Below are positions 3,446-28,790 of a stretch of 37,428 nucleotides of DNA, piece by piece. The stretch is from Vicinamibacteria bacterium (lineage in GTDB: Bacteria; Acidobacteriota; Vicinamibacteria; Fen-336). The notes beneath the pieces are model-generated. The model did not search any database. It worked only from the letters and a program-made list of their open reading frames with translations, and was not told the DNA's origin. The first letter of the stretch is position 1, and each line of letters begins with the position of its first letter. The position numbers and the translations under genes were made by a program. The stretch is from positions 1 through 37,428 of the forward strand of contig JAMPXO010000040.1 in NCBI GenBank assembly GCA_023701125.1. Direction: 5' to 3'.

Positions 3446-4615
3446 ATGAGCGCCGCCTTCGCCCTGGAACCCGTCCGACCCTTCCGCGTGCTGGTCGCCG
3501 ACGACCAGCTCGACGTCCAGATCGCGCTGCGACTGTTGCTCAAGTCCCACGGCTGCGAGCTGGCGACCGCCTCCGACCCGGCCGAGATCCTCGCCCGCCT
3601 CCGGCACGAAGAGTTCGACGTCGTGCTGATGGACCTGAATTACACGCGCGACACGACCTCGGGCCGCGAGGGGCTGGAGACGCTGGCCCGCGTGCGCGAG
3701 CTGGTCCCCGGGCTGCCGGTGGTCGTGATGACGGCCTGGGGCACGCTCGAGATCGCGGTCGAGGCGATGCGGCGCGGCGCCGACGACTTCGTGCTGAAGC
3801 CGTGGGACAACGCGCTGCTGGTCGATCGCGTCACCCAGCACGCGCGGCGCCGGCTGCAGAGCGAGGCCGAGGCCCGCCGCCGCGAGGCCGACCGGCGCGA
3901 CCTGGAGCTCGCGCGCCGGGTGCAGGCCAGCCTGTTCCCCGGCGCCCGGCCCGTCAGCGCCAGCCTCGACTACGCGGGCGAGTGCCTCGAAGCCGGTGCG
4001 GTCGGCGGCGACTTCTACGACTTCCTCGACCTCGGCCCCGAGCGCATGGGCCTGGTCCTGGCGGACGTCGCGGGCAAGGGCGTCTCGGCCGCGCTGCTGA
4101 TGGCCTCGCTCCAGGCCTTCGTGCGCAGCCGCTGCTCGTCGGTCGCGGGACCCGACCTGGGCCTGCGCCTGCAGGAGGTCAACCGCCTCTTCTTCACCTC
4201 GACGCCGGCCGAGCGATACGCGACGCTGTTCATCGCGGTGTGGGACGGCTCCACGCGCGCCCTGTGGTACGCCAACTGTGGCCACACGCCGCCGCTGCTG
4301 CGACGGCGGAGCGGTCACTACGAGACGCTGTCCCCCACCTCCACGGTGCTCGGCCTGTTCGAGGAGTGGGAGCCGGACGTGCGCCACGTGGCGCTCGAGC
4401 CGGGCGACCTGCTGGTGGCGGTCTCCGACGGGGTCACGGAGGCGGCGCGGCCCGACGGCGAGGAGTTCGGCCTGGCCGGGCTGCGGGCCGTGATGGAGGG
4501 GCTGGCGACGATGCCCGCGACGGCCGTGCCCTCCGCCGTCGTCGCGGCGACGCTCGGGCACGTCGGCTCCGCGGCCCAGGACGACCTGACGACGCTGGTG
4601 GCGCGGGTGCGCTGA
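3446..4615 (+). CDS. Response regulator with SpoIIE/RsbU-type PP2C phosphatase output
   Basis: Cytoplasmic two-domain signalling protein of 389 residues. The receiver domain (about 13-130) has the acidic pair in VLVADDQ, phospho-acceptor D63 (LMDLNY), the T of VVMTAWG and the conserved Lys of VLKPWD. After a short helical linker (EARRREADRRDLELARRVQASLFPG) comes a PP2C/SpoIIE phosphatase domain (about 170-389) with the metal-site motifs GGDFYDF, ADVAGKGVSAAL, SDGVTEA and AQDDLTTLV. Such proteins dephosphorylate an STAS anti-anti-sigma factor in response to receiver phosphorylation. Start ATG at 3446 has a strong SD AGGAGGAG (3431-3438). No sensor kinase or cognate STAS protein is adjacent. 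The STAS/RsbW pair at 28.0-28.8 kb has its own phosphatase. Confidence 0.92.
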   Translation: MSAAFALEPVRPFRVLVADDQLDVQIALRLLLKSHGCELATASDPAEILARLRHEEFDVVLMDLNYTRDTTSGREGLETLARVRELVPGLPVVVMTAWGTLEIAVEAMRRGADDFVLKPWDNALLVDRVTQHARRRLQSEAEARRREADRRDLELARRVQASLFPGARPVSASLDYAGECLEAGAVGGDFYDFLDLGPERMGLVLADVAGKGVSAALLMASLQAFVRSRCSSVAGPDLGLRLQEVNRLFFTSTPAERYATLFIAVWDGSTRALWYANCGHTPPLLRRRSGHYETLSPTSTVLGLFEEWEPDVRHVALEPGDLLVAVSDGVTEAARPDGEEFGLAGLRAVMEGLATMPATAVPSAVVAATLGHVGSAAQDDLTTLVARVR

Positions 4616-4631: not shown

Positions 4632-5612
4632 TCAGTCCAGCGCGAACAGCAGCAGCAGCGTGCGCTGGAGCGGGTTGAAGTTGTCGTCGGAGAGCAGCAG
4701 CAGCAGCGTCTCGCCGCCCGGCCCGCGCAGCGCCTCGATCGCCTCGAAGTTGTCGACCGTGAGCGGCCTCTTCAACTCGGCCAGCAGCTCGCCCTCGAGC
4801 AACGCGCCGGGAGCGATCTGGGCGGCGCGGATGCGGCGCAGGCGCGCCGTGACGCCGGTCAGCGGCGAGTACGAGCGCTCGATCACCACCACGTCCCCGT
4901 CCGGCAGCAGCGCCGCCCCGGCGGGCCGCGGGTCGCCCTCGGCGCGGTAGCGCAGGGGCGCCCAGCCGTCCTTGTCCCACAGCCACGCGGCGAGCTGTCC
5001 CGAGGCCTCGAGCTCTTCCGTCAGCGCGAGCACGCGGCCGTCGGCCAGCGCCGTCATCGCCTCCAGCCCGCCGTTGCGCGGCGCGCCCTCGAGGCCGGGC
5101 GGCGTGGGCCACGCCTGCGCCGGCCCAGCGAGGCTCTCGTAACGCAGCACGCGATGGCGCTGCTCGAAGCCGACCAGCAGCGACCCGTCGGGCAGGCGCG
5201 CCATCGACTCGGCGTCCTGGTTGGCCTTGCCATCGAGCTCGTTGCCCACGGTGTCGAGCAGCATCCCCGAGGTCGCCTGCGCCCCGACGCCGACGAGGCG
5301 GCCGGACTCGATCCGCACACCGAACTCGAAGTGGGCGCCTTCGTCGCTCACCGCGCGCGCGGTGCTGCCGGTCAGTCGCACGTCCGAGAGCCCGCCGAAG
5401 CCCGGCTGCGGCGACGACAGGGCCAGGCCTCCGCGATACTCGAGGCGGCCGACGCGCACCTGCGCGGCATCGTCGGCGTTGAGCGGCACGGACACGGCCT
5501 CCAGCCGCGGCGCAGCGCCCGAAGCCGACCCCGCCCAGGCAGCGAGCGCGCCAGCGGCCAGCAGCGCCACGCTCCGTCGTCGGGTTCCGACGCCTCCCCC
5601 CCGTCCGTTCAT
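4632..5612 (-). CDS. Secreted esterase-like phytase-family protein (PF13449-like)
   Basis: A 326-residue exported protein. An Arg-rich N-terminus followed by a hydrophobic stretch ([23 protein letters not shown]) acts as signal peptide; the RRR could support Tat export, but the motif is not canonical. The mature part has the pattern of the esterase-like phytase family, a beta-propeller: [58 protein letters not shown], and a terminal [25 protein letters not shown] (split here from longer matches). Enzymatic activity is not established for most members. Its ATG (5612-5610) overlaps the stop codon of the upstream HEAT-repeat gene in an ATGA arrangement, so the two are probably translationally coupled. 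It converges on the phosphatase gene with a 16 bp gap. Confidence 0.8.
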
Positions 5613-7771
5613 CGGCCCCCGATCCTCTCCAATGCCACGGCGACGGCCGCGCGCACGGTGGCGTCGGCGTCCTTCTCCAGCTTGCGCACGTCTCCGGCCG
5701 CGGGCTGCGCTGCCGCTCCCGCCTCGCCCAGCGCCTCCACGGCCCGCCGTCGGGCGGCCACGTCGGCCTCCTTCAGCGCGGAGCGCAGCGGCCCGAGCCA
5801 CTGCGCCGGGGCCGCCCCGAGGCGGTTCAGCGTCGCCGCGGCCTCGACCCGGGCCAGCGCATCGCCGGGCAGGCGCGTCGCCTCGATCAGCTCGGGGAGC
5901 GCGCTGGCGGCCGACGGCCCGATCGCGCCGATCGCACGCGCGGCGACCGCGCGCAGCAACCCGTCGGCATCGTGCAACGCGGCGATCAGTTCAGGCAGGG
6001 CAGGACGGGCTGCGGCTCCGAGGCGCGCCAGTTGCGAGGCCGACTGGCGCCGCAAGGTAGCGGAACTCGATTGAAGGCCCATGCGCAGGGGCGTCAGGTC
6101 CAGCTCGGGCGACGCAGCCGCGGCCGGTGCGGGGGCCGACGCTGCCGGCACCACGGCCGGTGTCGGCGCGGGCGCGGCCGGCGTCGGCGTGGCTCGTGGC
6201 GTCGGCACAGGTGTCGGGGCGGGCGTCGGCGCGGGCGTGGGGGTCGAAACCGGGGTCGGAGCAGGCGTGGGCGTCGCGGTCGGGCGCGGCGTCGGAGTCG
6301 GTGTGGGCGCAGGAGTCGGAGTCGCCGTCGGCCGCGGAGTCGGCGTGGGCGCAGGAGTCGGTGTCGGTGTCGGCGTCGGTGCCGGCCGCGGAGTCGGCGT
6401 GGGCGTCGGCACCGGTGTGGGCGTGACCGTCGGCGTGGGCGTCGGCACCGGTGTCGGTGCAGGCGTCGGAGTGGGCGCGATCGGACGCGGCGAGGGCGTC
6501 GGCGCGACGGTCGGGCTCGGGCGCGGCGTGGGCGCGGACGTCGCCGCCGCCACCTGTGCCGACCGGGCGGGCTCGGCGGTCGTCGGCGCGCCCACCCGTT
6601 CGGCGGCCCAGGCCGCCACGATCCGCAGCCGGCTGTCGCCGCCTTCGATCAGCGGCGCCAGGCTGGGCGCGGCGCTCCGCGCCAGCGGCCCCGCCTCGCC
6701 GATCGCGCGCGCCGCTTCCAGCCGCGCCTGCGGGTCGGGGTCGGACAGCGCCGTCTCCAGCACCCGCACCGCGTCGGCCACGCTGAGCCCGCTGCGCAGC
6801 AGGGCGCGCGCCGCGATCCGCCGCACGGCGCGGTCCCCGTCGCGCAACGCGGCCCGCAGGTCCGGCTCCGCCTCGTGCACGGCCTCCGCCGGCAGCTCGA
6901 GGAAGGCCTGCGCCGCGCGGCGCCGGACCGTGCCGTCCGCGTCCGAGAGCGCCCGGCGCAGCACCGCCTCCGCGTCGACGTCCCCCAGCGAGACCAGCGC
7001 CGCGGCCGCTTCCACCTGCAGCAGGCCTTCGTCCTGACGCAGCGCCTCGCCCAGCACCCGCCGCGCACCGGACTCGGTCGGCGCCGCGGTGGGAACGGCC
7101 GCCCCGCCGGCAATCGCCTCGGGCGCGATCTCGCGCAGCGCCGCTTCGGCCCAGCCGCGCACGCTGAGATCCGGGTCGCCGAGCGCCTTGACGAGTGCCG
7201 GCACCGCGGCCGCGCTGGCCGGGCCGCCGCGCCCGAGGGCATTGGCCGCGTGGCCGCGCACGCTGGGGTCCGGGTCGGCCAGGGCGACGACGAGGTCGGC
7301 CGCGGGCGGCAGCGAGGCTGGCGGAACGCGGCCGAGCGAATACGCGGTGCGCCGCCGCACCTGGAGATCGGGGTCCTTGAGCCCGCCGACGAGCGCCGGG
7401 ACGATGCCCGCGGCGCCAGGCTGGATCCAGGCCAGGGCCAGCGCCGCCTCGACCCGCAGGAAGGAGTCGCGGCTGGCGAGCGCCTCGGCCAGGGCCCGCG
7501 CCGCGGGAGCCGCGGCAGGTCCGATCGCTCCCAGCGACCGGGCCGCGGCCAGGCGCACCATCGGATCGCGGTCGGACAACGCCTGACCGAGCGCGGTCAC
7601 CGCCCCCGCCGCATCCGCGCCCATCTCGCCCAACGCCTGGGCCGCCGCCGCGCGCTCGAACGGCTCGCGCGAGCGCAGGCGCTCCAGCTCCACGGCAAGG
7701 CGATCCTGGCCCTGGGCCCCCAGACCGAGGAGCCCAAGCGCGACGGCAGCGGCGCAGATGCGCAGTTTCAC
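5609..7771 (-). CDS. Exported HEAT-repeat protein with long Pro-Thr linker
   Basis: A 720-residue protein without a recognised enzymatic domain. The GTG at 7771 gives a clean signal peptide ([22 protein letters not shown]); the longer ATG-initiated form would bury it. Residues about 25-390 are many HEAT/PBS-lyase-like repeats (recurring units such as [28 protein letters not shown]). Residues about 410-540 form a Pro/Thr/Ala linker of repeated PTPTPAPT units. Residues about 548-720 return to HEAT repeats. HEAT solenoids bind other proteins or ligands, so a periplasmic scaffold is plausible but unproven. It overlaps the phytase-like gene downstream by 4 bp and is divergent from the GHKL-transglutaminase gene (62 bp between starts). 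Confidence 0.88.
6140..6540 (-). repeat. Degenerate 6-bp-unit repeat encoding the Pro-Thr linker
   Basis: In-frame repetition of ACGCCC/CCGACC-type hexamers on the coding (minus) strand, encoding about 130 residues dominated by [11 protein letters not shown]. Units are imperfect, with synonymous variation, which suggests an old or selected linker rather than a recent slippage expansion. Length variation between strains is likely. Confidence 0.85.
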
Positions 7772-7833
7772 GGGCGCGGGACCGTAGCACGCCCTCCCCG
7801 GCCCATTCAAGGAAGCCCGTAGACTCGGAGGCG

Positions 7834-10572
7834 ATGCTCGCGGCGGACCACGCCCGCTTCGTCGCCCGCGCCCGGCGCGAGGCCGCGCGTTACGGCAGCC
7901 GCCCGCTCGTCTTCCTGCGCGAGTTGGTGCAGAACGCCCGCGACGCCGGCGCCAGCCGTGTCGAGTTCGTGGTCGAGGAGCGTGGCGACGGCTGCCGCAT
8001 CCGCTGCCACGACGACGGCTGCGGGATGACGGCCGAGCACGCCCGCCAGTTCCTGTTCCGCCTCTACGCCTCGAGCAAGGGGCACGTCGGCGAAGCGGGG
8101 CGCTTCGGCGTCGGCTTCTGGTCGGTGCTGCGCTTCGAGCCCGAGCGGCTGGTGGTGCGCTCGCGACAGGCCGGTGCGGCGGCCTGGGGCGTCGACTTCG
8201 ACGGCGGCCTGACCTCGGTCACCACCTCTCCCCCGCCGGCCGACTTCGCGCCGGGCACCGAGGTGATGCTCGAGCGCGCGGCGCCGTGGCCCGATCTCGC
8301 GGCCGCGGTGCGCGCGGCGTTGCGCGAGCAGGTCCGCGACGTGCGCCGACGGGACCGGCCCGGCGAGCGGCTGTCGATACGGCTGGCGGGCGAGGAGCTC
8401 AACGCCCCGCTCGCGCTGGCGAACCCGAGCGCCTCGTTCGAGGCCGGAGCGGAACGCGGCGTCGTGGGGCTGGCCCCCGCGCCGCGGGTCGAGGTGTTCT
8501 CGCTCGGGCTCCGCGTGCGCGACGCGCAGACTCTCGACGAGTTGCTCGGCGGGCCCGCGGCTCGCGCCTGGTGCGCCGTGCCCGGCCTGGCTCCGGCGAT
8601 GGTGCTGGAGAGCGCGCGGGTCGCTCCGCTGCTGAGCCGTGCCGACCTGCGCGCGGACGCGGCGCTCCGGCGCCTCGAGCGCCGCGCGCGGGCAGCACTG
8701 CGCCGGCTGATGGACGCCGAGCTCGCGCGCCTCCACCCGCCCACGCTCGGCGAGCGCTTCTCGGGCGTCTTTCGCGCCTGGCCCGGGGTGACCGCGTTCC
8801 TGGCGACGCTGGTCCTCGGCCTCGGCGTGCTCGCCGCCGTGGTTGGCCCGCGGCGCGTCGCGTCGGAGGCGGCCACGAACTTCGGCCCGGCCGCGAGCGC
8901 AGCTCCTGCTCCGCCGCTGCGCGCGCCCGCGACTGCGGTCGGAGAGGTCCCGCTTTCGTCCGCGTTGGGTCTGACGCGAGAGCCCGGGGTCGGCGTGGTC
9001 CACGGCGACGAGCCCGCCATCGCCCTCCGCTTCACGCCGGTGGAGCGGTCGACGCTGCTGGCGCTGCGGCGCACGCCCGCCGCGGAGCTGAGGTCGGCCC
9101 CGGCGGCCACTCACGCCGACGCCGCTGCGCCGCGCGACGACCCCGGCCAGGTCGTCGAATGGCGGGTACGGGTCCGCGTCCGCGATGGCGGTGGCGCTGT
9201 GCCGCTGCCGACCGCGATCGGCACCGATGTCGCGCGCATCCGGCCGCAGCCCACGCGCTGGCTCGTGCGCGCCGGTGAACCTCCACACGCCGAGTTCGCT
9301 CCGGGCTTCGCGGGCTGGGTCGAGTACGAGCTGGTCGCAGGGGCCACCGACCCGCCGCCCGCAGCCGTGTCGCCGCGGCCACTGCCGCTGCCCGCGCGGC
9401 TGGCCGAGGCGGCCCGCGTCCTGCGCACGTTGCCCGTCGCCCGGCGCCCGGAGGCGGCGCTCGCGTTCGTGCAGGGAGCGCTGCGCGAGGCCCGCGATGC
9501 CGAGGCGATGCGCCGCTTCGCGAGCGCGCCCGGCGCCGACTTCGCGAGCCGGGCCCTCGCGGCCGGGGTCGGCGACTGCGACGTGCTCAACGGCGTGCTG
9601 GTGCTGCTGCTCGACGGCGCAGGGCTGCCGTCCCGACTGGCCGTGGGTGTGGTGGCCCGCGACGGACGCGCCGAGCCCGGCCTCCACGCGTGGGCCGAGA
9701 CCCACGACGGCGAGCGGTGGATCGCCCTGGACGCGACGCGGCCGGGTGCCGCGCCGGCAGCGGCGCCGGGCCTTCAGGCCGCCCCGCTCATCGCGGCACC
9801 TGCTCCAGTCGAGGTGGCTGTGGCCCGTCAGCCGCTCCCTCCCGGGGAAAGCGCCGGCGCGGATCGCGGCGGGTGGTTCGCGGCGATCGCCGGCGTGGCC
9901 GTTCTCGCGGCCGTCGTGCTCTGGCGGCGCCGCGAGCGCCGGGCGGCGGTCAGCCCCGGCGCGACATCGGTCGACGACCTGCTGCGCGGCGCCCTGCGCC
10001 ATCCGGAGGCCTTCAGCGGCGCGCCGGCCGTGTTCGATCGGCCGCTGCTCGCGCGCGCGGGCGGCGGCCACGTGTCGCTCGGCGAGGCCTGGCGGGAGGC
10101 GGCGACGGGGCGCTTGTACCGGGCCGGAGACGGCTCGCGAGCGCTGGTCCGCGAGGCCCGAGCCCGCCGCGGCGTCGTGCTCGACGACCGCTCCGCCACC
10201 GCGGCGACGGTCGCCGACGCGCTCGGCGCGCTCGACCTCGAGGCGTGGGACGAACGCTGGCGGGCGGCCGAAGCCCATCCCGTCCTGAAGCAGTTGGAGC
10301 AGGCCTGCGCTCGCCACGGCCTGCGCTTCGAGGCGCGGCTCGGCCCGGGGGCGCGAATCGAGGCGCTGCCGCTGGCGGCACGCGGCCCACGCCCGCGGCT
10401 GCTGATCGGTCGCGACAGCGGCCCGTGGCGCGCCTTCGCGTCGCTGCCGCCGGCGCGCGCGACGTTCGAGCTGGCGCGGGATGCCGTGCGTCCGCTCGTG
10501 GTGCCCGCGGCCCAGGCCGTGCCGGTGCTGCGCGTGCTGGCCCGGGCCGCATTGGCCGAGGGCGCGCGTTGA
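7834..10572 (+). CDS. Membrane protein with Hsp90-like GHKL ATPase and transglutaminase-like domains
   Basis: A 912-residue multidomain protein with no family I recognise as a whole. Residues 1-about 290 form a GHKL ATPase of the Hsp90/sacsin type: N-box [13 protein letters not shown] (general base E30, Mg-binding N34, D37), nucleotide box HDDGCGM (D60/D61, G62) and glycine box [13 protein letters not shown] (G89-G94). A first membrane span covers about 316-338. The region up to about 675 should be extracytoplasmic. It holds a transglutaminase-like core with an intact triad: C582 (GVGDCDVLN), H618 (GLHAWAE) and D633 (IALDAT). A second span covers about 680-702 ([18 protein letters not shown]), followed by Arg-rich RRRERR and a cytoplasmic tail of about 210 residues of unknown fold. 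The inferred role is ATP-dependent transmembrane control of a cysteine protease/transglutaminase-like activity. Its stop overlaps the start of the next gene. Confidence 0.88.
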
Positions 10573-11924
10573 ACGCCCCGCTCTTCGGCGTCGACGATGC
10601 CGCGGAGCTCCGCGCGCTGGCGGCGGCAGACGTGTCCGAGCCCGAGCAGGTGCCGGTCGAGTGCGTGCGGGCGCTCGCGGCGCTCGGCGCGACCCGGGTC
10701 GAGGTTCGCCTGGGCCGCCGCGGATTCCAGGTGGTCGCCCCGGGCGCTTCCCTGCCCGAGCCGCTGCGAGCCGCACTCGACACCGCGCTGGCGACGGCGG
10801 CCCCCGCGAGCGAACGAGCGCACGCGGTCGAGGAGATCGCCGCGGGGCCGGCCGCGTCGCTCGCGGTGCTGCTGCACCCCTCGGTGCAGGCCGTGCGCTG
10901 GACGCTCGCGCCGCCCGGTCTCGACGTGAGGCTCGCCACGCTGACACGCGAGTCCGCCCGCGAGCGGCTGCGGGCGGCCTGCCGCCACTCCCCGCGCCCG
11001 ATCCTCGTCGACGGCGCCTTGCAGACTCCGCGCCGGCCGCTGGACGAGTTCCCGTCGAGGGCATTGCCGGCGCCGGAGCGCGGGCGGCTGACCCTGCTCC
11101 CCGAGTCCGAGGCCGCGCGCGCGACCTTGCTCGTCCACGGCATCGTGCGCGCGGTCCGGCCGCTCCCCGCGCGGCTGCCGTTCGAAGTGGTGCTGGAGGT
11201 CGCCGGCACCGGCGGCGAAGCCCCGGACCCCGCGGCACTGCGCGATCACGCCGATGCGCGATCCGCCGCCTGGGACCAGCTCGCCGCGTCGCTGCTGATC
11301 GACGAGCTGCACCGGCCGCCAACGGACCCCGCCCGCGACGCCCTGCTGGCGGCCCTGTTCCTGCGCGGCGTCGAGGGCGGCCTGGCACCGCACGACTGGC
11401 GCCGCGTGCCGGCGCTGGTCGTGAACCACGACGGCCGGCGCGTGCGGGCCTCCGCGGACGAAGTCGAAGCCCTGGGCGCGGAGGCGGCGATTGCCGTGCT
11501 CGAACCCGGCGGGCGGCCGCGCGGCACGGTGCTGGAGGCGAGCGTGCCGGTGCGAGCCGCGCTGTCGCGGTTGCTCGGCCTGCGCTTCGAAGATGTCGCG
11601 CGACACGCGGAGCGCGCGCCGTGGCGCAGCCGGCTGCGCGCGGCCGTCGACGCGCTCTGGGCCCTCGCGGGGCGCGTGGCAGCGCGCACCCCGCTGCCCG
11701 CCCGCGCGCTGCTGCCGCAGGAGCGGGCGCTGCTCGCGGCGCTCCAGAAGGAGTGGCCGGCCTACCTGGTCGCCGGCCGCGGGCGCCCGCAGCGCACGCG
11801 GCGCGGCGTGGCGTTGCCCCGCGCCGCGGCCGACGTCGCGCTGGCGGCTCGCGGAGTTCAGCGCGATCCCGGGCTGCTCGCCGCCGCCGTGGCCCTGCTG
11901 CGGCCGCCGGCTCAGCGCGAGTAG
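10569..11924 (+). CDS. Degenerate GHKL-domain partner protein
   Basis: A 451-residue cytoplasmic protein without a recognised family. It starts at a TTG (10569) that overlaps the TGA of the previous gene, with GAGGG upstream, so coupled translation is likely. Its N-terminus aligns by eye with the preceding protein: ECVRALAALGATRVEV against [16 protein letters not shown], at nearly the same residue number (31 versus 30). The Glu is kept, but the Mg-binding Asn is Ala35, the following Asp is Ala38, and the DDG nucleotide box is replaced (VVAPGAS). It therefore looks like a pseudo-ATPase paralogue. Downstream segments such as WRRVPALVVNHDGRRVRASADEVEALG resemble the middle region of sacsin/Hsp90-like proteins, but only weakly. 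There are no membrane spans. The 3' end overlaps the convergent next gene by 13 bp. Confidence 0.78.
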   Translation: MNAPLFGVDDAAELRALAAADVSEPEQVPVECVRALAALGATRVEVRLGRRGFQVVAPGASLPEPLRAALDTALATAAPASERAHAVEEIAAGPAASLAVLLHPSVQAVRWTLAPPGLDVRLATLTRESARERLRAACRHSPRPILVDGALQTPRRPLDEFPSRALPAPERGRLTLLPESEAARATLLVHGIVRAVRPLPARLPFEVVLEVAGTGGEAPDPAALRDHADARSAAWDQLAASLLIDELHRPPTDPARDALLAALFLRGVEGGLAPHDWRRVPALVVNHDGRRVRASADEVEALGAEAAIAVLEPGGRPRGTVLEASVPVRAALSRLLGLRFEDVARHAERAPWRSRLRAAVDALWALAGRVAARTPLPARALLPQERALLAALQKEWPAYLVAGRGRPQRTRRGVALPRAAADVALAARGVQRDPGLLAAAVALLRPPAQRE

Positions 11925-14034: not shown

Positions 14035-16350
14035 ATGGCCACGCGCAGCGTCGCAGACGGCTCGTCGAAGGAGCTGTCCTACCGCAAGCGGCTGATCGAG
14101 ATCGCGAACCAGCTGAACTCGGCCGCGAGCATCCAGGACATCCTGGTCGACATCAAGGACAAGATCCTCGACCTGGTCGAAGCCGACCGCGTCACGATCT
14201 TCGCCCTCGACACCAAGAACCAGGAACTGTTCTCGCTGTTCAAGGCGGGCCAGGAGGTCAAGGAGATCCGCGTCGCCAAGACCTTCGGCTCGATCGCGGG
14301 CTTCACGGCGCTGTCGCGCAAGACGGTCAACATCCGCAACGCGTACGACCCGTCCGAGCTGACCCGGCTGCACCCGAACCTCAAGTTCGACTCGCGCTGG
14401 GACAAGTCCTCGGGCTTCCGCACCACCCAGGTGCTGGCGACCCCGATCCTGTTCGAGAAGTACCTGCTGGGCGTGCTGCAGCTGATCAACAAGCGCGGCG
14501 GCCAGGGCTTCACGCCGAAGGACGAGGAGGCCGCGGAAGAGCTGGCCAAGATCCTCGGCATCGCCTTCTACAACCAGCACCGCGCGGCGCGCTCGAACAA
14601 GCCGTCGAAGTACGGCTACCTCGTCGACAAGGGCATGGTCTCGGAGAAGGACGTCGAGGCCGCGATCACCAACGCCCGCGTCAACCAGGTCGACCCGGCC
14701 AAGATCCTGATGGAGGACCCGTTCAAGGTCCCCAAGGAGGAGATCGGCAAGGCGCTGTCGCAGTTCTACAACTGCGGCTTCTGGGACGGCACCGGCAAGG
14801 TGATCCCCGAGGAGCTCAAGGCGCGGCTGACCCCGGAGTTCCTGAAGAAGAACTCGTGCGTGCCGATCGAGAAGCGCGAGGGCACGCTGTTCGTCGCGGT
14901 CGAGGACCCGTACGACCTGACCCGCCTCGACGCCATCAAGGCGATGAACCTGGCGCCACGGCACGACTTCCTGGTCGCGCTGCGGATGGACATCGTGGAG
15001 TGCATCCAGGGCACGTACAACGCCGGCGGCTCGGCCCCGATCGCGGAAGAGGCGGACCTCGGCCGCATCATCATGGAGCTCGGCTCCGGCGACGAAGACG
15101 ACATGGAGGGCGGCGAGGAGAAGAGCGCCGAGCCCGAGATCGACGAGACCGACTCCGGCATCGTCAAGCTCGCCAACCAGATCATCATCGACGCGTACAA
15201 CAAGAACGCGTCGGATATCCACATCGAGCCCTACGGCAAGCAGTCCCCCACCATCGTCCGGCTGCGCGTGGACGGCGACTGCCAGAAGTACCTGGAAGTG
15301 CCGGCGCCCCACCGCAACGCGCTGGTGCAGCGCTTCAAGATCATGTCGAAGCTCGACATCGCCGAGAAGCGCAAGCCGCAGGACGGCAAGATCCGCTTCA
15401 AGGGCCCGATGGGCGTGATCGAGCTCCGCGTCGCCACCATCCCGACGTCCGGCAACAACGAAGACATCGTGATGCGCATCCTGGCGGCGTCGAAGCCGCT
15501 GCCGCTGGACAAGATGGGCTTCTCCGAGCGCAACCTGACGGAGTTCAAGAAGATCCTCGAGAAGCCGTACGGCGTCTGTCTCGTCGTGGGCCCGACCGGT
15601 TCCGGCAAGACCACCACGCTGCACTCGGGGGTCGGCTTCATCAACACCGTCGACATGAAGATCTGGACCGCCGAGGACCCGGTCGAAATCACGCAGGCCG
15701 GCCTGCGCCAGGTCCAGGTGCACCCCAAGATCGGGTTCACCTTCGCCGTGGCCATGAAGGCCTTCCTGCGCGCCGACCCCGACGTCATCCTGGTCGGCGA
15801 AATGCGCGACCACGAAACGGCCGCGACGGGCATCGAGGCGTCGCTGACCGGCCACATGGTGCTGTCGACGCTGCACACGAACTCGGCGCCGGAGACGATC
15901 ACCCGCCTGCTGGACATGGACATCGACCCGCTGAACTTCGCCGACGCGCTGCTCGGGATCATGGCCCAGCGCCTGGTCCGCACCCTCTGCAAGGACTGCA
16001 AGGAAGCCTACAACCCGACCCAGGAAGAGATCACCGAGATGCGCGACGCCTACGGCCACGAGCTGTGGGACGAGCGGGTCAAGGTGCAGTGGACGCCCGA
16101 CATGCAGATGTACCGGGCCAAGGGCTGTCCGAAGTGCAGCAACAGCGGCTTCAAGGGCCGGATGGGCATCCACGAGCTGCTGATCGCGACCGACGAGATG
16201 AAGCGGATGATCCAGCGCCGCGAGACGGTCGAGAAGATGCGCGTCCAGGCGATCAAGGACGGCATGACCACGCTGCTGCAGGACGGCCTCGAGAAGGTTC
16301 TGCTGGGCAAGTCGGACTTCAAGTCGGTGCGGGCGGTCTGCATCAAGTAG
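14035..16350 (+). CDS. GspE/PilB-type secretion ATPase with N-terminal GAF domain
   Basis: A 771-residue cytoplasmic hexameric ATPase for type IV pilus or type II secretion assembly. Residues about 20-180 form a GAF domain (GSIAGFTALSRKTVNI, FRTTQVLATPILFEKYLLGVLQLINK). About 195-330 is an MshEN/T2SSE_N-like domain, and a Glu/Asp-rich linker follows. The motor domain has Walker A GPTGSGKT (519-526), Walker B DPDVILVGE (E589), the His box HMVLSTLHTNSA and a zinc tetracysteine (C652, C655, C698, C701). Start ATG 14035 follows GAAGAGGAGG. Codon choice is unusually uniform (AAG, GAG, CTG), suggesting strong expression. It stands alone: no pilin, GspF or GspL genes adjoin it, though a secretin lies 9 kb away. 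The GAF domain suggests control by a small ligand. Confidence 0.93.
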   Translation: MATRSVADGSSKELSYRKRLIEIANQLNSAASIQDILVDIKDKILDLVEADRVTIFALDTKNQELFSLFKAGQEVKEIRVAKTFGSIAGFTALSRKTVNIRNAYDPSELTRLHPNLKFDSRWDKSSGFRTTQVLATPILFEKYLLGVLQLINKRGGQGFTPKDEEAAEELAKILGIAFYNQHRAARSNKPSKYGYLVDKGMVSEKDVEAAITNARVNQVDPAKILMEDPFKVPKEEIGKALSQFYNCGFWDGTGKVIPEELKARLTPEFLKKNSCVPIEKREGTLFVAVEDPYDLTRLDAIKAMNLAPRHDFLVALRMDIVECIQGTYNAGGSAPIAEEADLGRIIMELGSGDEDDMEGGEEKSAEPEIDETDSGIVKLANQIIIDAYNKNASDIHIEPYGKQSPTIVRLRVDGDCQKYLEVPAPHRNALVQRFKIMSKLDIAEKRKPQDGKIRFKGPMGVIELRVATIPTSGNNEDIVMRILAASKPLPLDKMGFSERNLTEFKKILEKPYGVCLVVGPTGSGKTTTLHSGVGFINTVDMKIWTAEDPVEITQAGLRQVQVHPKIGFTFAVAMKAFLRADPDVILVGEMRDHETAATGIEASLTGHMVLSTLHTNSAPETITRLLDMDIDPLNFADALLGIMAQRLVRTLCKDCKEAYNPTQEEITEMRDAYGHELWDERVKVQWTPDMQMYRAKGCPKCSNSGFKGRMGIHELLIATDEMKRMIQRRETVEKMRVQAIKDGMTTLLQDGLEKVLLGKSDFKSVRAVCIK

Positions 16351-17890: not shown

Positions 17891-19114
17891 CTACTGGTAG
17901 AGCAGGAACTTCTCGCGTTCCTTGCGCCAGCCGGCCTGGGCGGCCTTGTCGGCGTCCAGGATCTCGCGCAGGGACCAGTCGAGGCGCAGCATCTCGCGCA
18001 CGCGGCGGGTGCCGAGCAGCGCGTCGATCCCGCGGCCCTGGCGGCTCCACTCGAACTCGGGCTGGCGGCGCAGCGCCTGCAGCAGCGAGATGCCCAGCTC
18101 CCACGGTTGCGCGGCCGGCGGGTCGACCACGCGGATCGTGATCCCCGCGCTTTCCTGGTCCTTGAACTTCGGCGACGGGCTGGCGGGCGAGGCCTTGGCC
18201 GTGAACCGCGTCGGCCCCAGCGCGTAGCCGGGCACGGCGACCCCGGCCAGCACGTGGGCCGTGCGCAGCCACGGGGCGCCGATCGTCAGGAACGGCGCGT
18301 CCGTGCCGCGGCCCTCTGCGACGTTCGTGGCCTCGAGCAGGCAGGTGCCGGGATAGGCCATCGCCGCATCAGAGGTGCGCAGGTTGGGCGACGGCGCGAC
18401 CCACGCCCGGCCCGTGTCGTGCCAGGTCATCGACCGCTTCCAGCCCTTCATCGTGACCACTTCGACCCGCGCCTTCTTCGGCAGCGTCTCGTTGTGCAGC
18501 CGCACCATCTCGCCCAGGGTCAGGCCGTGGACCAGCGGACCCGGCGTGTAGTTGACCAGCGTCCGCGGCATCACGCTCGCGGGCTCGGACAGCGGTCCTT
18601 CGACCCGCTCGCCGCCGAGCGGGTTGGGCCGGTCGAGGACGACGACCCGCACCCCGGCCTGCGCCGCCGCCTCCACCGCCATCAGCGCCGTCGACGCGTA
18701 CGTGTAGAAACGCACGCCTGCGTCCTGCAGATCGATGACCAGGGTGTCGACGCCCTCGAAGTCGCCCGCCTCGGGCTGCGTCTTCTGGCCGTAGAGGCTG
18801 ACCACCGGCAGGCCCCAGCCCTCGTCGCGGCCGCTCTCGATCTTCGCCCCCGCCGCCACCGCGCCGCGCGCGCCGTGCTCGGGTGCGAACAGGCGCACGA
18901 TCTCGAGCCCCTCGACGCCGCGCAGCACCTCCACCGCATGGCGGCCGGCCGCCGTCACCGAGGCCCCGTGGGCGAGCAGCGCGATCTTGCGGCCCTTGAG
19001 CGGACCACCGCTTTCGGCCTCGATCCGTTCCAGGCCGACCTGCACGGCCGCGGGCGGCTCGGCATCCTGGACAGGCGCGGCCGCGAGCAGCAGGCCGAGC
19101 AGCAGGGCGTTCAT
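17891..19114 (-). CDS. namZ: Exo-beta-N-acetylmuramidase NamZ (DUF1343 family)
   Basis: A 407-residue exported protein that matches the DUF1343 family, whose characterised member in B. subtilis (YbbC/NamZ) removes MurNAc from the non-reducing end of peptidoglycan glycans. Recognisable blocks are the Rossmann-like KIALLAHGASVT, LFAPEHGARG, LYGQKTQPEAG, DTLVIDLQDAGVRFYTY, VVVLDRPNPLGG, MSWH-like SMTWHDTGRAWVAPSPNL, YPGTCLLEATNVAEGRGTDAPF, and a C-terminal helix. A short signal peptide (MNALLLGLLLAAAPVQ) puts it outside the cytoplasm. Start ATG 19114 has a strong SD AAGGAGGT and overlaps the upstream gene's TGA (ATGA). It acts logically with the NagZ-AmiE-like fusion encoded just before it. Confidence 0.92.
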   Translation of the reverse strand: MNALLLGLLLAAAPVQDAEPPAAVQVGLERIEAESGGPLKGRKIALLAHGASVTAAGRHAVEVLRGVEGLEIVRLFAPEHGARGAVAAGAKIESGRDEGWGLPVVSLYGQKTQPEAGDFEGVDTLVIDLQDAGVRFYTYASTALMAVEAAAQAGVRVVVLDRPNPLGGERVEGPLSEPASVMPRTLVNYTPGPLVHGLTLGEMVRLHNETLPKKARVEVVTMKGWKRSMTWHDTGRAWVAPSPNLRTSDAAMAYPGTCLLEATNVAEGRGTDAPFLTIGAPWLRTAHVLAGVAVPGYALGPTRFTAKASPASPSPKFKDQESAGITIRVVDPPAAQPWELGISLLQALRRQPEFEWSRQGRGIDALLGTRRVREMLRLDWSLREILDADKAAQAGWRKEREKFLLYQ

Positions 19115-21981
19115 CGGGGGACCTCCTTGGCGTCGGGTTCCAGGGCGCGGACCACGGCATCGGCCGCGGCCTGCCGCACCTGGCGGATCTTGTTGTTCTC
19201 GCGGGTCGGGTGGACCCGGTTGCTGAGCAGGATCAGGAACAGCCGCCGCTCCGGGTCGATCCAGAGCGACGTGCCGGTGAAACCGGTGTGGCCGAACGAG
19301 CGAGCCGAGAACAGCACGCCCGCCGACGAGTTCTCGGACGGCGTGTCCCAGCCCAGCGCACGGCTGGAGCCGGGCACGGTCGCCCGCTTCGTGAACATCT
19401 CGACGACTCGCGGCGAGACGATCCGGCGGTGCTCGAGCACGCCGCCGTTGATCAACATCTGGGCGAAGCGGGCCAGGTCGCGGGCCGTGCCGAACAGGCC
19501 GGCGTGGGGCGCGATGCCGCCGAGCGCATGGGCGTTCTCGTCGTGGACCTCGCCGCGCACCACCCGCCCGCGCCAGGGGTCGTCTTCGGTCGGCGCGATC
19601 CGCGGCAGCAGCGACGGCGCCGGCAGGTAGCGGGTGTCGGCCATCTTCAACGGCTCGAACACACGGCGCCGCACGAACGGCTCCAACGGCTCGCCGGCCA
19701 CCCGCTCCAGCACCTCGCCCAGCAGCAGCACCCCGAGGTCGCTGTAGACCGACTTCGAGCCCGGCTCGTAGACCAGCTCGGAGGCGATGACGCGGTCGAG
19801 GTAGGCGTCCTTCGTCTTCAGCTCGCGGTACAGCGGCGCCCACCAGTCGATACCCGAGGAGTGGGTCAGCAGGTGGCGCACCGTGACCCTCTCGCGGCCG
19901 CCGCCCGTGAAGCGCGGCACGAACGCCGACACGGGCTTGTCGAGGTCGAGCTTGCCCTCGTCGACCAGGATCATGGCCATCGTCGTGGTCGCGATCACCT
20001 TGGTCAGGCTGGCCAGGTCGTAGATCGTGTCGACACCGGCGGGCGCGGATTCCGGCCCGTAGTCCAGCCGACCGTAGCCCTTCAGGTGGACCAGGGCGCC
20101 GTCCTTCCCCACCGCGGTGACCGCGCCGGGGAACGCCTTGTCGGCCACGGCCTGCTCGACGACGGAGTCGAGGCCGGCCAACCCCGTCGCGAAACCGACT
20201 TCTTCCGGGCGCGCGTCGCGCAGCGTCATCTCGTGCCTCGAAAGCTCCAGGCCATGGCCGTAAGGATAGAGCTCCGGCAGCGTCACCGGCAGCTTGCCGC
20301 GGCTCGGCACCTCGCCGAACAGCACCCGCATGGCCGCCCGCTGGCTCGACTCGGCGCCACCGTAGGCGATCACGTACGCCTTCGCCTCGGGCACCTGGCG
20401 CAGCAGGTAGGGGCTGCCGTAGGAGACGAGGGTCAGCGGCGCGCCGCCCGCCGCCAGCGCGCGCAGCAGCCGCGCGTGGCTCTCGGCCATGTCCGCGGTG
20501 CCCTTCGAGCCGGTGACGCGCACGAAGCAGGAGGCGACCACGTGGGTCCACTCGCCCGCTCGCGCCGCGAGCCGCGCGATCGTCGCGTCCGAGACCTCGG
20601 GGCCGAGGTGGACGTTCTCGACCGCCACGTCCCGGGACGCGAATTCCGCCTCCGGGAGGCCCTGGATGAAGTCGTTGCGGGCGTCGCTCGACATCACCAG
20701 GTGCAGCACCTTGAGCGGCGTCTCCGCGCGCAGCGGGAGCAGTCCCCCGTCGTTCTTCGCCACGGTGATCGAGCGCTCGGCGAGTTGCGCCGTGCGCGCC
20801 ACGTCCTCGGGCCGCATCACGTCGCGCGGCAGCAGCGCGGAATCGACCTTGCGGTCGCGGTGCAGGCCGAGCCGCTCCTTGACCGCGAGGATGCGGCGCA
20901 CCGAGGCGTCGATCCGGGCCTCGTCGAGCTGCCCCTCGCGCACCGCGCGGACCAGCGCCTGGACCGCGATCTCCGGCTCGGGCGGCAGCAGGATGAAGTC
21001 GGCCCCGGCGCGCACGGCCTTGACCGCGGCCTCGCCCGTCCACGCCGCGCGCACCCCGTGCATCTCCATCGCGTCGGTGACGATCAGGCCCTGGAAGCCG
21101 AGGTCCCTGCGCAGCAGGTCGTGGGCGATCTGCGGCGACAGCGTGGCGGGGCTGCCCGACGGATCGAGCGCCGGCACCGCGATGTGGCCCAGCATCACCG
21201 AGTCGGCGCCGGCCGCGAGTGCCGCCCGGAACGGCTTCAGCTCGACCGCGTCCAGGCGGGTGCGGTCGGCGTCGATCGACGCCAGCGCGAGGTGGCTGTC
21301 GACCGCGGTGTCGCCGTGGCCCGGGAAGTGCTTGGCCGTGGTCAGCAGGCCGCCGTCGTGGGCCCCGCGCAGGAACGCGCCGACCATCTCCGCGACCAGG
21401 TCCGGGTCCTCGCCGAAGGAGCGGATGTTGATCACCGGGTTGGCGGGGTTGTTGTTGACGTCGGCCACCGGCGCGAAGCCCCAGTGGATGCCGACGGCGC
21501 GCGCCTCGCGGGCGGTGACCTCGCCGGCGAAGCGGGCCGCCTCGGGGTCGCGGGTGGCGCCGATCGCCATCGCGTACGGCAGCGGCACGGCCCCGCGGCG
21601 GACGCGGAAGGCGAGCCCGCGTTCCAGATCGGCCGACACCAGCAGCGGCACGGCGGCCGCCTCCTGCAGGCGGTCGAGCAGTCGCGGCAGCGTCTCCAGC
21701 TCGGACTCGAACACGACGACGCTGCCGACGCCGAGGTCGCGCACCTGCGCCATCAGCCGAAGGGCCTCGGTGGAGCGCGGGTGGCGGTACAGGCCGTAGG
21801 CGCGCACGCCGATCATCTGCGCGGCCTTGCGCTCGAGGCTCATCCCGCGCAGCGTGCGCTCGGCCCAGCCACCCGCCTGGGCGGGGGCCGTGGTCGGCGC
21901 CTGTGGAGAGGTCGGGGCCCCGGGGTGGCGGCACGAGGCCACGAACGCGCCCAGCAGCAGGAGGAGACCGGCTCGCCTCAC
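19111..21981 (-). CDS. NagZ-like GH3 glucosaminidase fused to AmiE/beta-lactamase-type serine hydrolase, lipoprotein
   Basis: A 956-residue lipoprotein: the GTG start (21981) gives a signal peptide ending in lipobox VAS-C17. Residues about 30-390 are a GH3 N-acetylglucosaminidase with the NagZ signature KHFPGHGDT (217-225), the Asp-x-His dyad D228/H230 and nucleophile D303 (VTDAMEMHG). About 400-590 is a GH3 C-terminal-like domain. About 600-950 is a serine beta-lactamase-fold hydrolase with S658-x-x-K661 (SLTK), Y746-S-D and HTGFTG in place of KTG. In B. subtilis the equivalents are separate genes, ybbD (NagZ) and ybbE (AmiE, MurNAc-L-Ala amidase), beside ybbC (NamZ), which is also the next gene here. 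Such fusions are known in Bacteroidota. The start overlaps the DigH-like stop (GTGA). Confidence 0.9.
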   Translation of the reverse strand: MRRAGLLLLLGAFVASCRHPGAPTSPQAPTTAPAQAGGWAERTLRGMSLERKAAQMIGVRAYGLYRHPRSTEALRLMAQVRDLGVGSVVVFESELETLPRLLDRLQEAAAVPLLVSADLERGLAFRVRRGAVPLPYAMAIGATRDPEAARFAGEVTAREARAVGIHWGFAPVADVNNNPANPVINIRSFGEDPDLVAEMVGAFLRGAHDGGLLTTAKHFPGHGDTAVDSHLALASIDADRTRLDAVELKPFRAALAAGADSVMLGHIAVPALDPSGSPATLSPQIAHDLLRRDLGFQGLIVTDAMEMHGVRAAWTGEAAVKAVRAGADFILLPPEPEIAVQALVRAVREGQLDEARIDASVRRILAVKERLGLHRDRKVDSALLPRDVMRPEDVARTAQLAERSITVAKNDGGLLPLRAETPLKVLHLVMSSDARNDFIQGLPEAEFASRDVAVENVHLGPEVSDATIARLAARAGEWTHVVASCFVRVTGSKGTADMAESHARLLRALAAGGAPLTLVSYGSPYLLRQVPEAKAYVIAYGGAESSQRAAMRVLFGEVPSRGKLPVTLPELYPYGHGLELSRHEMTLRDARPEEVGFATGLAGLDSVVEQAVADKAFPGAVTAVGKDGALVHLKGYGRLDYGPESAPAGVDTIYDLASLTKVIATTTMAMILVDEGKLDLDKPVSAFVPRFTGGGRERVTVRHLLTHSSGIDWWAPLYRELKTKDAYLDRVIASELVYEPGSKSVYSDLGVLLLGEVLERVAGEPLEPFVRRRVFEPLKMADTRYLPAPSLLPRIAPTEDDPWRGRVVRGEVHDENAHALGGIAPHAGLFGTARDLARFAQMLINGGVLEHRRIVSPRVVEMFTKRATVPGSSRALGWDTPSENSSAGVLFSARSFGHTGFTGTSLWIDPERRLFLILLSNRVHPTRENNKIRQVRQAAADAVVRALEPDAKEVPR

Positions 21982-26829: not shown

Positions 26830-28005
26830 TCAGTCGAAGCAGAGGGTCAGCAGCGAGAAGTCGTCGTCCAGGCCCTCGCCGTGAGCCTCCCGCACCTGGT
26901 CGTAGATCTTGCGGGTCGAGCCCGGGGCCGGCGGCGTCGCGAGCAGCAGGGCCTCCAGGGCGGCCTCGTCCATCTCCGAGCCGTCCGTCCGCCGCACCTC
27001 GAAGGCGCCGTCCGAGAACACGTGCAGCACGCCGCCCGGCGGGACCCGGCAGGTCGCCTCCCGGAAGCGGGCGTCGACGTCGAAGCCGATCACCATGCCC
27101 GGCGTGCGCAGCTCCTGGCGCCCGCCCTCGCCGAACAACAGCGCCGCGGGATGGCCGGCCGTGCTGTAGCGCAACTCGCGGGTGGAGGGCGTGTAGACCC
27201 CGTACCAGGCCGTGAAGTACATCTGGTTGTGGCGCTCCATCGGGTAGTCCTCGTTGAGCGCCTTCAGCACGGCCGCCGGCGCCAGCGGGTCGACCTCGCC
27301 GAGGCTGCCCGAGTTCAGCGTGTTCATCAGCGACGTCGCCAGCAACGCCGCGCCGACACCGTGGCCGGACACGTCGAACAGGTAGATCACCAGCCGGTCG
27401 GGCTCCAGGTACACGGTGCCGAAACCGTCGCCGCCGATGCGGGTCGAGGACACGAACGTCCAGTCGCTGCGGATGGCCCCCGTCATCGGCCGTGGCAGCA
27501 CGGAGGACACGTAGTTGGCGGCCTCGGCCAGCTCGGCGGCCAGTTCGGCCTGGCTCTCGCGCAGCGCCACGAAAGCCGCGCGCTCGCGATCGCGCAGCGC
27601 CTTCTTCTCGAGGCAGGCGCCGACCCGGGCCCGCAGCAGCACCGGGTTGAACGGCTTGTTCAGGAAGTCGGTCGCCCCGGCGGTGACCGCCTTGACGACC
27701 AGCTCGATGTCGGTGGCGGCGGAGATCATGATGACGGGGATGTCCCGCCACAGCTCGTGGGCCTTCATCGCCTCGAGCACGCCGAAGCCGTCGAGCCTCG
27801 GCATCATCAGGTCGAGCAGGACGAGGTCGATCGGCTCGGCGGCCAGCCGCTCGAGCGCCTCGACCCCGTCGACGGCGGAACAGGTCGTGTGCCCCTGCCG
27901 GGCGAGCCGTCGCTCCAGCAGGTCGCGGTTCATCTCCTGGTCGTCGACGACCAGGATGTGTCCGCGCGGACCCGCCTGCGCCGCGCCCGCCGCCTCCGGC
28001 GCCAT
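26830..28005 (-). CDS. Receiver-domain SpoIIE/RsbU-type serine phosphatase
   Basis: A 391-residue cytoplasmic protein and last gene of the operon. The receiver domain (15-135) has D21/D22, phospho-acceptor D65 (LLDLMMP) and K117 (LNKPF). After a coiled linker (about 135-170) comes a PP2C/SpoIIE domain with GGDGFGTVYL (D193), FDVSGHGVGAALLA (D211), a FSDGAFEV segment and the final GLDDDFSLLTL. The expected function is dephosphorylation of the STAS protein encoded 5 bp upstream, releasing it to bind the RsbW-like kinase. Start ATG 28005; no sensor kinase is adjacent. The 3' end abuts the two-hairpin repeat. Confidence 0.92.
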   Translation of the reverse strand: MAPEAAGAAQAGPRGHILVVDDQEMNRDLLERRLARQGHTTCSAVDGVEALERLAAEPIDLVLLDLMMPRLDGFGVLEAMKAHELWRDIPVIMISAATDIELVVKAVTAGATDFLNKPFNPVLLRARVGACLEKKALRDRERAAFVALRESQAELAAELAEAANYVSSVLPRPMTGAIRSDWTFVSSTRIGGDGFGTVYLEPDRLVIYLFDVSGHGVGAALLATSLMNTLNSGSLGEVDPLAPAAVLKALNEDYPMERHNQMYFTAWYGVYTPSTRELRYSTAGHPAALLFGEGGRQELRTPGMVIGFDVDARFREATCRVPPGGVLHVFSDGAFEVRRTDGSEMDEAALEALLLATPPAPGSTRKIYDQVREAHGEGLDDDFSLLTLCFD

Positions 28006-28010
28006 CGGGC

Positions 28011-28349
28011 TCAGGCCGAGAGTTCCTGGACGCCTTCGGCGCGGGTGGCGACGATGTGCAGCACCGTGTCGAAGCCGGCGATGTCGAACACCTTGCGGAT
28101 CGCCGGGCGCAGCGCGGACACGGCCAGCTTCCCGTCGACCGCCTTCATCCGCTTGGCGGCCAGCATCAGCACCCGCAGCCCGATGCTGCTGATGTACTCG
28201 AGCCCGGCGAGGTCGAGCAACAGCCGACGCGCCCCACCGTCGATCAGGGCCAGGATCCGCTCCTCGACGCCCTTGGAGGTGACGCCGTCGAGGCGCCCCG
28301 CGAGCGAGAGCGTCAGCACCTCGCCGTCCTTCTGCTCGACCATCTGCAT
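28011..28349 (-). CDS. STAS-domain anti-anti-sigma factor (RsbV-like)
   Basis: A 112-residue single-domain protein spanning a whole STAS fold: VLTLSLAGRLDGVTSKGVEE, ARRLLLDLAGLEYISSIGLRVL (shown as LLLDLAGLEYISSIGLRVL), KLAVSALRPAIRKVFDIAGF. The phosphorylatable serine is in EYISSIG (Ser54/Ser55; Ser55 aligns best with the known site in SpoIIAA/RsbV). It sits between the RsbW-like kinase (12 bp away) and the RsbU-like phosphatase (5 bp away), the classic partner-switching trio. ATG 28349 is used. No sigma factor is encoded nearby, so the final target could be a non-sigma protein. Confidence 0.93.
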   Translation of the reverse strand: MQMVEQKDGEVLTLSLAGRLDGVTSKGVEERILALIDGGARRLLLDLAGLEYISSIGLRVLMLAAKRMKAVDGKLAVSALRPAIRKVFDIAGFDTVLHIVATRAEGVQELSA

Positions 28350-28361
28350 GTCCTTGATCCC

Positions 28362-28790
28362 TCAGATCCTGCGGCGCAAAGAAAGCACGTTGCGACCGCC
28401 TTCGTGGCGGTACTCGATTCCATCCAGCAGGGTGCGCACGAGCTTCAGGCCCAGCCCACCGACGGAGCGCTGCTCGATCGGGCCGGTGGTGACCGCGTCC
28501 CGGACCTGCAGCGGGTCGAACGGGCGCCCGTTGTCCGCGACCTCCCCGCGAACCTCGCCGTCCACCACGCCGAGGTCGATCCACGTCCGCAGCGACGCCC
28601 GGTCGCGGCCGTCGCCCGCGCCGTAGTCGTTGACGTTGGTGACGATCTCCTCGAGCACCAGGTTCAGTTCGCCCACCAGGTCGAGCGAGAGGTGGTGCCG
28701 CTCGCCGAAGGCCTCGAGCGCGACGGCCAGGCGGTCCAACTCTTCGACGTCGTTGCCGAGTTCCAGCCGGAGCGAGGCCATCTCGTTCAT
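28362..28790 (-). CDS. RsbW/SpoIIAB-like serine kinase (HATPase_c_2)
   Basis: A 142-residue GHKL kinase. The N-box is LVLEEIVTNVNDYG (E48, N52), the nucleotide box is VADNGRPFDP (D86-G88) and the glycine box is GGLGLKLVRTL (111-121). It would phosphorylate the STAS protein and hold a target protein in the unphosphorylated state. Start ATG 28790 lies 4 bp after the stop of the NHLM ATP-binding transporter gene, so it is clearly part of the same transcript. A second ATG four codons later is possible. Confidence 0.93.
   Translation of the reverse strand: MNEMASLRLELGNDVEELDRLAVALEAFGERHHLSLDLVGELNLVLEEIVTNVNDYGAGDGRDRASLRTWIDLGVVDGEVRGEVADNGRPFDPLQVRDAVTTGPIEQRSVGGLGLKLVRTLLDGIEYRHEGGRNVLSLRRRI

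Follow-up and report, generated by a model that had tools for sequence, protein, structure and literature searches.

A candidate two-subunit membrane machine that joins a predicted Hsp90-type ATPase to a periplasmic transglutaminase-like domain in Acidobacteriota

Why should one polypeptide carry an Hsp90-like ATPase and a transglutaminase-like domain with the membrane between them? The question is raised by a gene located at positions 7834–10572 (+) of the 37,428-nucleotide stretch of DNA analysed here over its whole length (the window), which encodes a protein of 912 residues and begins at an ATG codon that is common to its relatives. The earlier note on this DNA had recognized the reading frame in exactly this form and proposed that the two domains are coupled across the membrane. 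From its N-terminus, the protein, which we term subunit A, comprises an Hsp90-type ATPase, a transmembrane span, the transglutaminase-like domain, a second span and a C-terminal domain, and its gene is paired with that of a second protein, subunit B. The features of both subunits described below lie on the (+) strand.

The architecture of subunit A is present in 51 genomes, all of which belong to the Acidobacteriota, the phylum of the host and the one that was surveyed. Two other members of the genus encode full-length relatives with 65% identity, and a genome from another genus of the family encodes one with 42%; a profile search adds 16 genomes of the phylum distributed over four other families, and a follow-up yields 20 more carriers from one of those four families plus 11 from the class to which another belongs. 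The loci range from 0.30 to 0.76 in GC content and the distinct proteins diverge down to ~21% identity. Within the window's own class subunit A is rare (4/193 genomes), with a fifth match there being a short GHKL match that was not counted as a carrier. In one family, f43, the operon is core (29/34 genomes, including 9/9 of good quality), and outside f43 its distribution is sporadic. A scan of genome contigs that used the window's own peptides as its only queries pointed to a locus from the Myxococcales (L003), which proved to be a plain transglutaminase-like gene with no fusion.

Conservation was assessed on an alignment of 53 full-length rows, representing 43 distinct proteins, with 10 genomes appearing twice. 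Fourteen positions are identical in 53/53 rows, namely E30, N34, D60, G62, G64, K82, G89, G92, G94, R269, C582, H618, W620 and D633, and the agreement of domains, residues and membrane spans across the rows is far beyond chance. This disposes of the explanation that the frame is a chance ORF, or an assembly fusion of two unrelated genes: although the high GC content (0.73) does yield long spurious ORFs, the same architecture with invariant catalytic residues recurs in 51 genomes over the whole GC range, so that an artefact is refuted by conservation and its probability is negligible. Both HATPase_c_3 and Transglut_core are matched by 18/18 members of the family alignment, and the retention of the ATPase residues together with those of the catalytic triad in every row suggests that both activities are under selection together.

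The first 150 residues of subunit A (7834–8283) correspond by profile to an Hsp90/sacsin-type GHKL nucleotide-binding domain. With the protein alone as query, the Pfam model HATPase_c_3 matches residues 28–101 (E 1.2e-8; 35.5 bits against a curated cut-off of 25). The N-box extends from E30 to N34 (7921–7935), which provide the catalytic Glu and the Mg-binding Asn, respectively, and is followed by the G1 motif, DDGCGM from D60 to M65 (8011–8028), and by the G2 motif, GRFGVG from G89 to G94 (8098–8115), which resembles the GxFGVGF motif of Hsp90. The earlier note had described these GHKL motifs as complete, and the alignment bears this out.

While the best single-sequence match of subunit A in the PDB is MutL, the profile of the family favours HtpG and Hsp90, with the HtpG N-domain 2ior matched at E 1.8e-10. 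Comparison of the N-terminal module using hhalign with a reference alignment of 21 HtpGs from the same phylum plus that of E. coli gives a probability of 99.0%, E 2.5e-18 and a score of 141.2, where shuffled columns reach 23.3; the alignment spans profile columns 24 to 300 and extends through HtpG profile position 359. The corresponding comparison with MutL is weaker (97.6%, E 3.1e-12) and ends at the nucleotide domain, and a MutL-like reading was therefore dropped in favour of an Hsp90-type one. Residues 151–305 (8284–8748) align with HtpG as a segment resembling the Hsp90 middle domain, and this middle part finds the same place in HtpG when used alone, although with modest similarity (a score of 29.3, where shuffled columns reach at most 20.1). 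Within this segment the invariant R269 (codon 8638–8640) falls on HtpG R336, equivalent to R380 of yeast Hsp90, the Arg with which the middle domain completes the ATPase and which also has equivalents in the Hsp90-like domains of sacsin (PMC9880540). The placement of R269, a point that the earlier note had missed, makes it likely that subunit A is a hydrolysing ATPase of the Hsp90 type, and on profile evidence the module is Hsp90/sacsin-type, lacking the rest of the middle domain as well as the C-terminal dimerization domain.

The second catalytic unit, spanning residues 565–634 (9526–9735), is a Transglut_core domain that is matched in Pfam by the protein alone at E 5.4e-9 (36.7 bits, curated cut-off 23). 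The full Cys-His-Asp triad that the earlier note had assigned is present, with C582 (9577–9579) lying within the motif GDCDxxNG, H618 (9685–9687) within LHAWxE, and D633 (9730–9732) completing the site. The Transglut_core (PF01841) superfamily is mixed, including enzymes of transamidation, deamidation and proteolysis, and sequence does not decide among these. A single-sequence AlphaFold model reached a pLDDT of 37 for the whole of subunit A and 50 for the transglutaminase region, too poor for a fold search.

The two domains are separated by membrane. Span 1 comprises residues 319–337 (8788–8844; hydropathy peak 2.52) and span 2 residues 679–697 (9868–9924), in close agreement with the segments at about 316–338 and 680–702 predicted earlier, and both are conserved, with the hydropathy of the corresponding alignment positions in every row having medians of 2.21 and 2.53 and a lowest 19-residue mean of 1.47, as compared with about 1.0–1.2 for the remaining sequence. 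Since ATP is cytoplasmic and span 2 is directly followed by the strongly basic, positive-inside stretch WRRRERR, the ATPase and the C-terminal domain are placed inside and the transglutaminase-like domain outside, on opposite sides of the membrane as the earlier note had proposed. The window moreover encodes LolA, a secretin and an export set of the HlyD/TolC type; the presence of LolA, a secretin and a TolC-like protein indicates a diderm cell, such that the outside compartment would be the periplasm. This topology, with the ATPase and C-terminal domain in the cytoplasm and the transglutaminase-like domain in the periplasm, is well supported.

The earlier note overlooked two further elements, the first of which is this third, cytoplasmic domain at the C-terminus (residues 705–912, ~210 residues; 9946–10569). 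It matches no known family, and contains a nearly invariant serine, S748. When compared with the C-terminal half of subunit B, it scores 19.2 against a shuffled maximum of 15.1, with a probability of 1–4%, which is only suggestive of a possible homology between the two.

The second element is subunit B itself. Its gene (10569–11924; 451 residues, TTG start) overlaps that of subunit A by the four bases TTGA (10569–10572), which contain both the start codon of B and the stop codon of A. Pair conservation and profile homology identify the product as a degenerate GHKL paralogue, although subunit B of the window has no clear family match in Pfam. The B profile aligns with the GHKL module of A (hhalign 98.5%, E 2.5e-15, score 114.5, shuffled maximum 18.6), and 5/19 partners still match HATPase_c_3, the best at 3.8e-9. 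In the window the degenerate N-box runs from E31 to A35 (10659–10673), and across all 19 aligned partners the position equivalent to N34 is occupied by A, H, D, T, R or L but never by N; the G1 motif has decayed in most of them. Loss of the catalytic Asn in all 19 points to subunit B being a pseudo-ATPase, and its sequence predicts a soluble, cytoplasmic protein. In the genus of the window subunit B is strongly decayed and forms a long branch in the tree.

The earlier note had also called for a survey of genomes for the same fusion and its neighbours, and subunit B is the one conserved neighbour that emerged. It lies directly behind subunit A in 20/20 of the loci first examined, with the genes overlapping by 4–10 bases in 17 of these, and in the newly found loci it is adjacent wherever the contig reaches. 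The sole exception is locus L124, in whose genome the partner is encoded close to the end of a different contig (G548:C175); at L124 a toxin-antitoxin-like pair (451–1091, (-) strand of that locus) stands behind the fusion gene in the place of the partner, possibly through an insertion or misassembly. When A and B were searched independently in 396 genomes across the phylum, the identical 17 genomes were found to carry each, and their trees have 12/15 splits in common with a distance correlation of 0.86. Thus, A and B are an obligate, co-inherited pair, and subunit A is one half of it.

GHKL ATPases such as Hsp90, MutL and GyrB work by ATP-gated closing and pairing of their N-domains. With an active module on a two-span chain and an obligatory dead copy on a soluble chain, the simplest reading is that of a pair of one active and one inactive ATPase. 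We suggest, giving this an even chance, that A and B form a two-subunit inner-membrane machine in which the cytoplasmic Hsp90-type ATPase and the pseudo-ATPase control the periplasmic transglutaminase-like cysteine enzyme. Here we infer the contact between A and B, the coupling across the membrane, the direction of the signal, the reaction and the substrate. The ATPase of A would be tethered via its two spans to the periplasmic Cys-His-Asp enzyme, with the C-terminal domain returning to the inside, and B most likely would pair with the ATPase domain of A where otherwise a second active protomer would sit. Binding and hydrolysis of ATP by A would then change the A–B clamp, and the two spans may relay this movement to the periplasmic enzyme, opening, closing or positioning it; the enzyme in turn would modify or cleave envelope proteins. 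A clamp is not assured, since A lacks the Hsp90 C-terminal dimerization domain and the Hsp90-like domains of sacsin may not dimerize (PMC9880540). More tentatively, and with somewhat less than even confidence, we propose that control of the enzyme by the ATPase/pseudo-ATPase pair is mechanical and acts across the inner membrane, which would make the pair a new class of transmembrane machine.

The same anatomy could operate in the opposite direction, as an outside-in sensor in which binding or cutting of an envelope substrate by the periplasmic enzyme would switch the ATPase and its partner, and these would in turn act on cytoplasmic clients. More than half of subunit A, comprising the ATPase module and the C-terminal domain, is cytoplasmic, as is, judging by sequence, the soluble partner, and several f43 loci have, immediately ahead of the operon, a gene for a metallo-hydrolase or for a LiaF-like envelope-stress protein. 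The upstream genes vary between families, however, and the intact triad in every copy suggests an enzyme over a mere receptor, and we regard a sensor as unlikely, though as one of the two main alternatives.

A further possibility is that no signal crosses the membrane at all, and that the Hsp90-like pair is a tethered chaperone, helping membrane or envelope proteins to fold or assemble at the inner face, with the transglutaminase-like domain processing these clients in a separate step; this is the other main alternative. The Hsp90/sacsin-type character of the module would suit this role, and HtpG is absent from the host and from most of its relatives in the class: PF00183 (HSP90) has no match in the host genome, nor on subunit A itself, and is found in 1/21 genomes searched from the class. 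Absence of HtpG is, however, also common in genomes that lack the operon, and several f43 genomes hold both, arguing against a simple substitute for HtpG; a replacement of HtpG by the operon is accordingly unsupported, and we consider the tethered chaperone rather improbable. Control of the periplasmic enzyme by the ATPase pair remains our preferred reading.

Beyond the partner, no neighbour is conserved between families. The surrounding genes vary by lineage and include those for LiaF-like proteins, a metallo-hydrolase, a zinc peptidase, a C69 peptidase, LysR, L9 and DXR, among others; at the loci of a further family, f34, the zinc peptidase precedes the operon and the C69 peptidase follows it. 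The neighbours in f43 and f34 are at best envelope-flavoured and prove nothing. A last proposal is a defence or conflict system, in which the sacsin-like ATPase would sense invasion and trigger a toxic periplasmic transglutaminase-like effector. The ATPase domain does resemble the PADLOC proteins TmtA (E 3e-11) and MzaB (1.1e-4), within the nucleotide domain only, and the operon is sporadic outside f43, but it is core in f43, and the neighbouring genes are of the housekeeping kind. In addition, there is no full-length PADLOC match for A and no PADLOC match of any kind for the partner; the plasmid scan found no copies, and neither did the first viral scan, while the second gave six contigs that match the ATPase domain only and are not members of the family. 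A role in defence is therefore highly improbable.

Several other loci of the window are of interest in their own right. Upstream of the operon lies a divergent gene (5612–7810, (-)) for a HEAT-repeat protein whose start resembles a signal sequence and whose two HEAT blocks are joined by a long linker rich in Pro and Thr; its synteny is kept only in the genus. A PilB-like secretion ATPase (14035–16347, (+)) carries a GAF domain at its N-terminus ahead of MshEN, and a NamZ exo-beta-N-acetylmuramidase stands beside a GH3/beta-lactamase-type fusion (17894–21843, (-)) in what has the appearance of a peptidoglycan-recycling pair. A partner-switch module (26833–28790, (-)) consists of a response regulator-PP2C, a STAS protein and an anti-sigma-type HATPase_c_2 kinase in a row, with a second response regulator-PP2C at 3446–4612. 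The segment 28798–36784 (-) comprises two ABC exporters, one with a C39 peptidase, together with HlyD-type and TolC-type genes, forming a type I/C39 export set, and a tRNA gene (10–82, (-)) is present at the edge of the window.

The known roles of Hsp90-type ATPases are those of chaperones, either soluble or in organelles. If the proposed control is correct, a relative of Hsp90 would use cytoplasmic ATP in a new way, namely to govern chemistry in the ATP-free periplasm. Its strict association with a dead copy offers a natural system in which to study the influence of an inactive protomer on an ATPase of the Hsp90 type. The core status of the operon in one family of bacteria makes a basic role in envelope physiology probable, in a phylum that has received little study.

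The system appears to be new while its folds are known: in the host phylum surveyed and the open PMC literature it has no counterpart, and no protein with this domain order is found in Pfam, NCBIfam, PADLOC or that literature, in line with the impression of the earlier note that no characterized system has it. MoxR AAA+/vWA conflict systems combine an NTPase with, rarely, a transglutaminase-like peptidase (PMC7159879), but the NTPase is AAA+ rather than Hsp90-type, and no vWA or MoxR gene was found beside the operon. MutL and MORC ATPases share the GHKL nucleotide domain, to which their profile match is confined, whereas A has no endonuclease or DNA-binding part. Sacsin-like ATPases (NF047352, PF25794) are closer, with NF047352 matching 18/18 family members (best 4.1e-15), although the window protein itself scores 44.8, below the cut-off of 50. 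Sacsin also has Hsp90-like domains that carry the Arg equivalent to Hsp90 R380 (PMC9880540), but as described contains neither membrane spans nor a transglutaminase domain; conversely, the window protein does not reach the cut-off of the SACS model, and Pfam detects no other sacsin domain (repeats, UBL, J or HEPN) there. HtpG and Hsp90 present the nucleotide domain, N-box, GxFGVGF motif and middle-domain catalytic Arg in the same line as A. In contrast to them, A is without a PF00183 match, the remainder of the middle domain and the C-terminal dimerization domain, and is anchored in the membrane and partnered with a pseudo-ATPase. On the other side of the membrane, the only PDB match of the transglutaminase profile is TgpA (6g49, E 2.7e-4), the DUF3488 plus Transglut_core protein PA2873 of Pseudomonas aeruginosa, the periplasmic part of which has transglutaminase activity in vitro (PMC3507681). 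Like A, TgpA is an inner-membrane protein whose transglutaminase-like domain lies in the periplasm, flanked by membrane segments, but it has six spans and no ATPase domain, whereas A has two spans and the Hsp90-type ATPase on the same chain, with no Pfam match to the multi-span DUF3488 N-terminus that characterizes the TgpA family. TgpA is thus the nearest relative on the periplasmic side, and Hsp90 and sacsin are the nearest on the cytoplasmic side, with subunit A standing between them as a member of neither.
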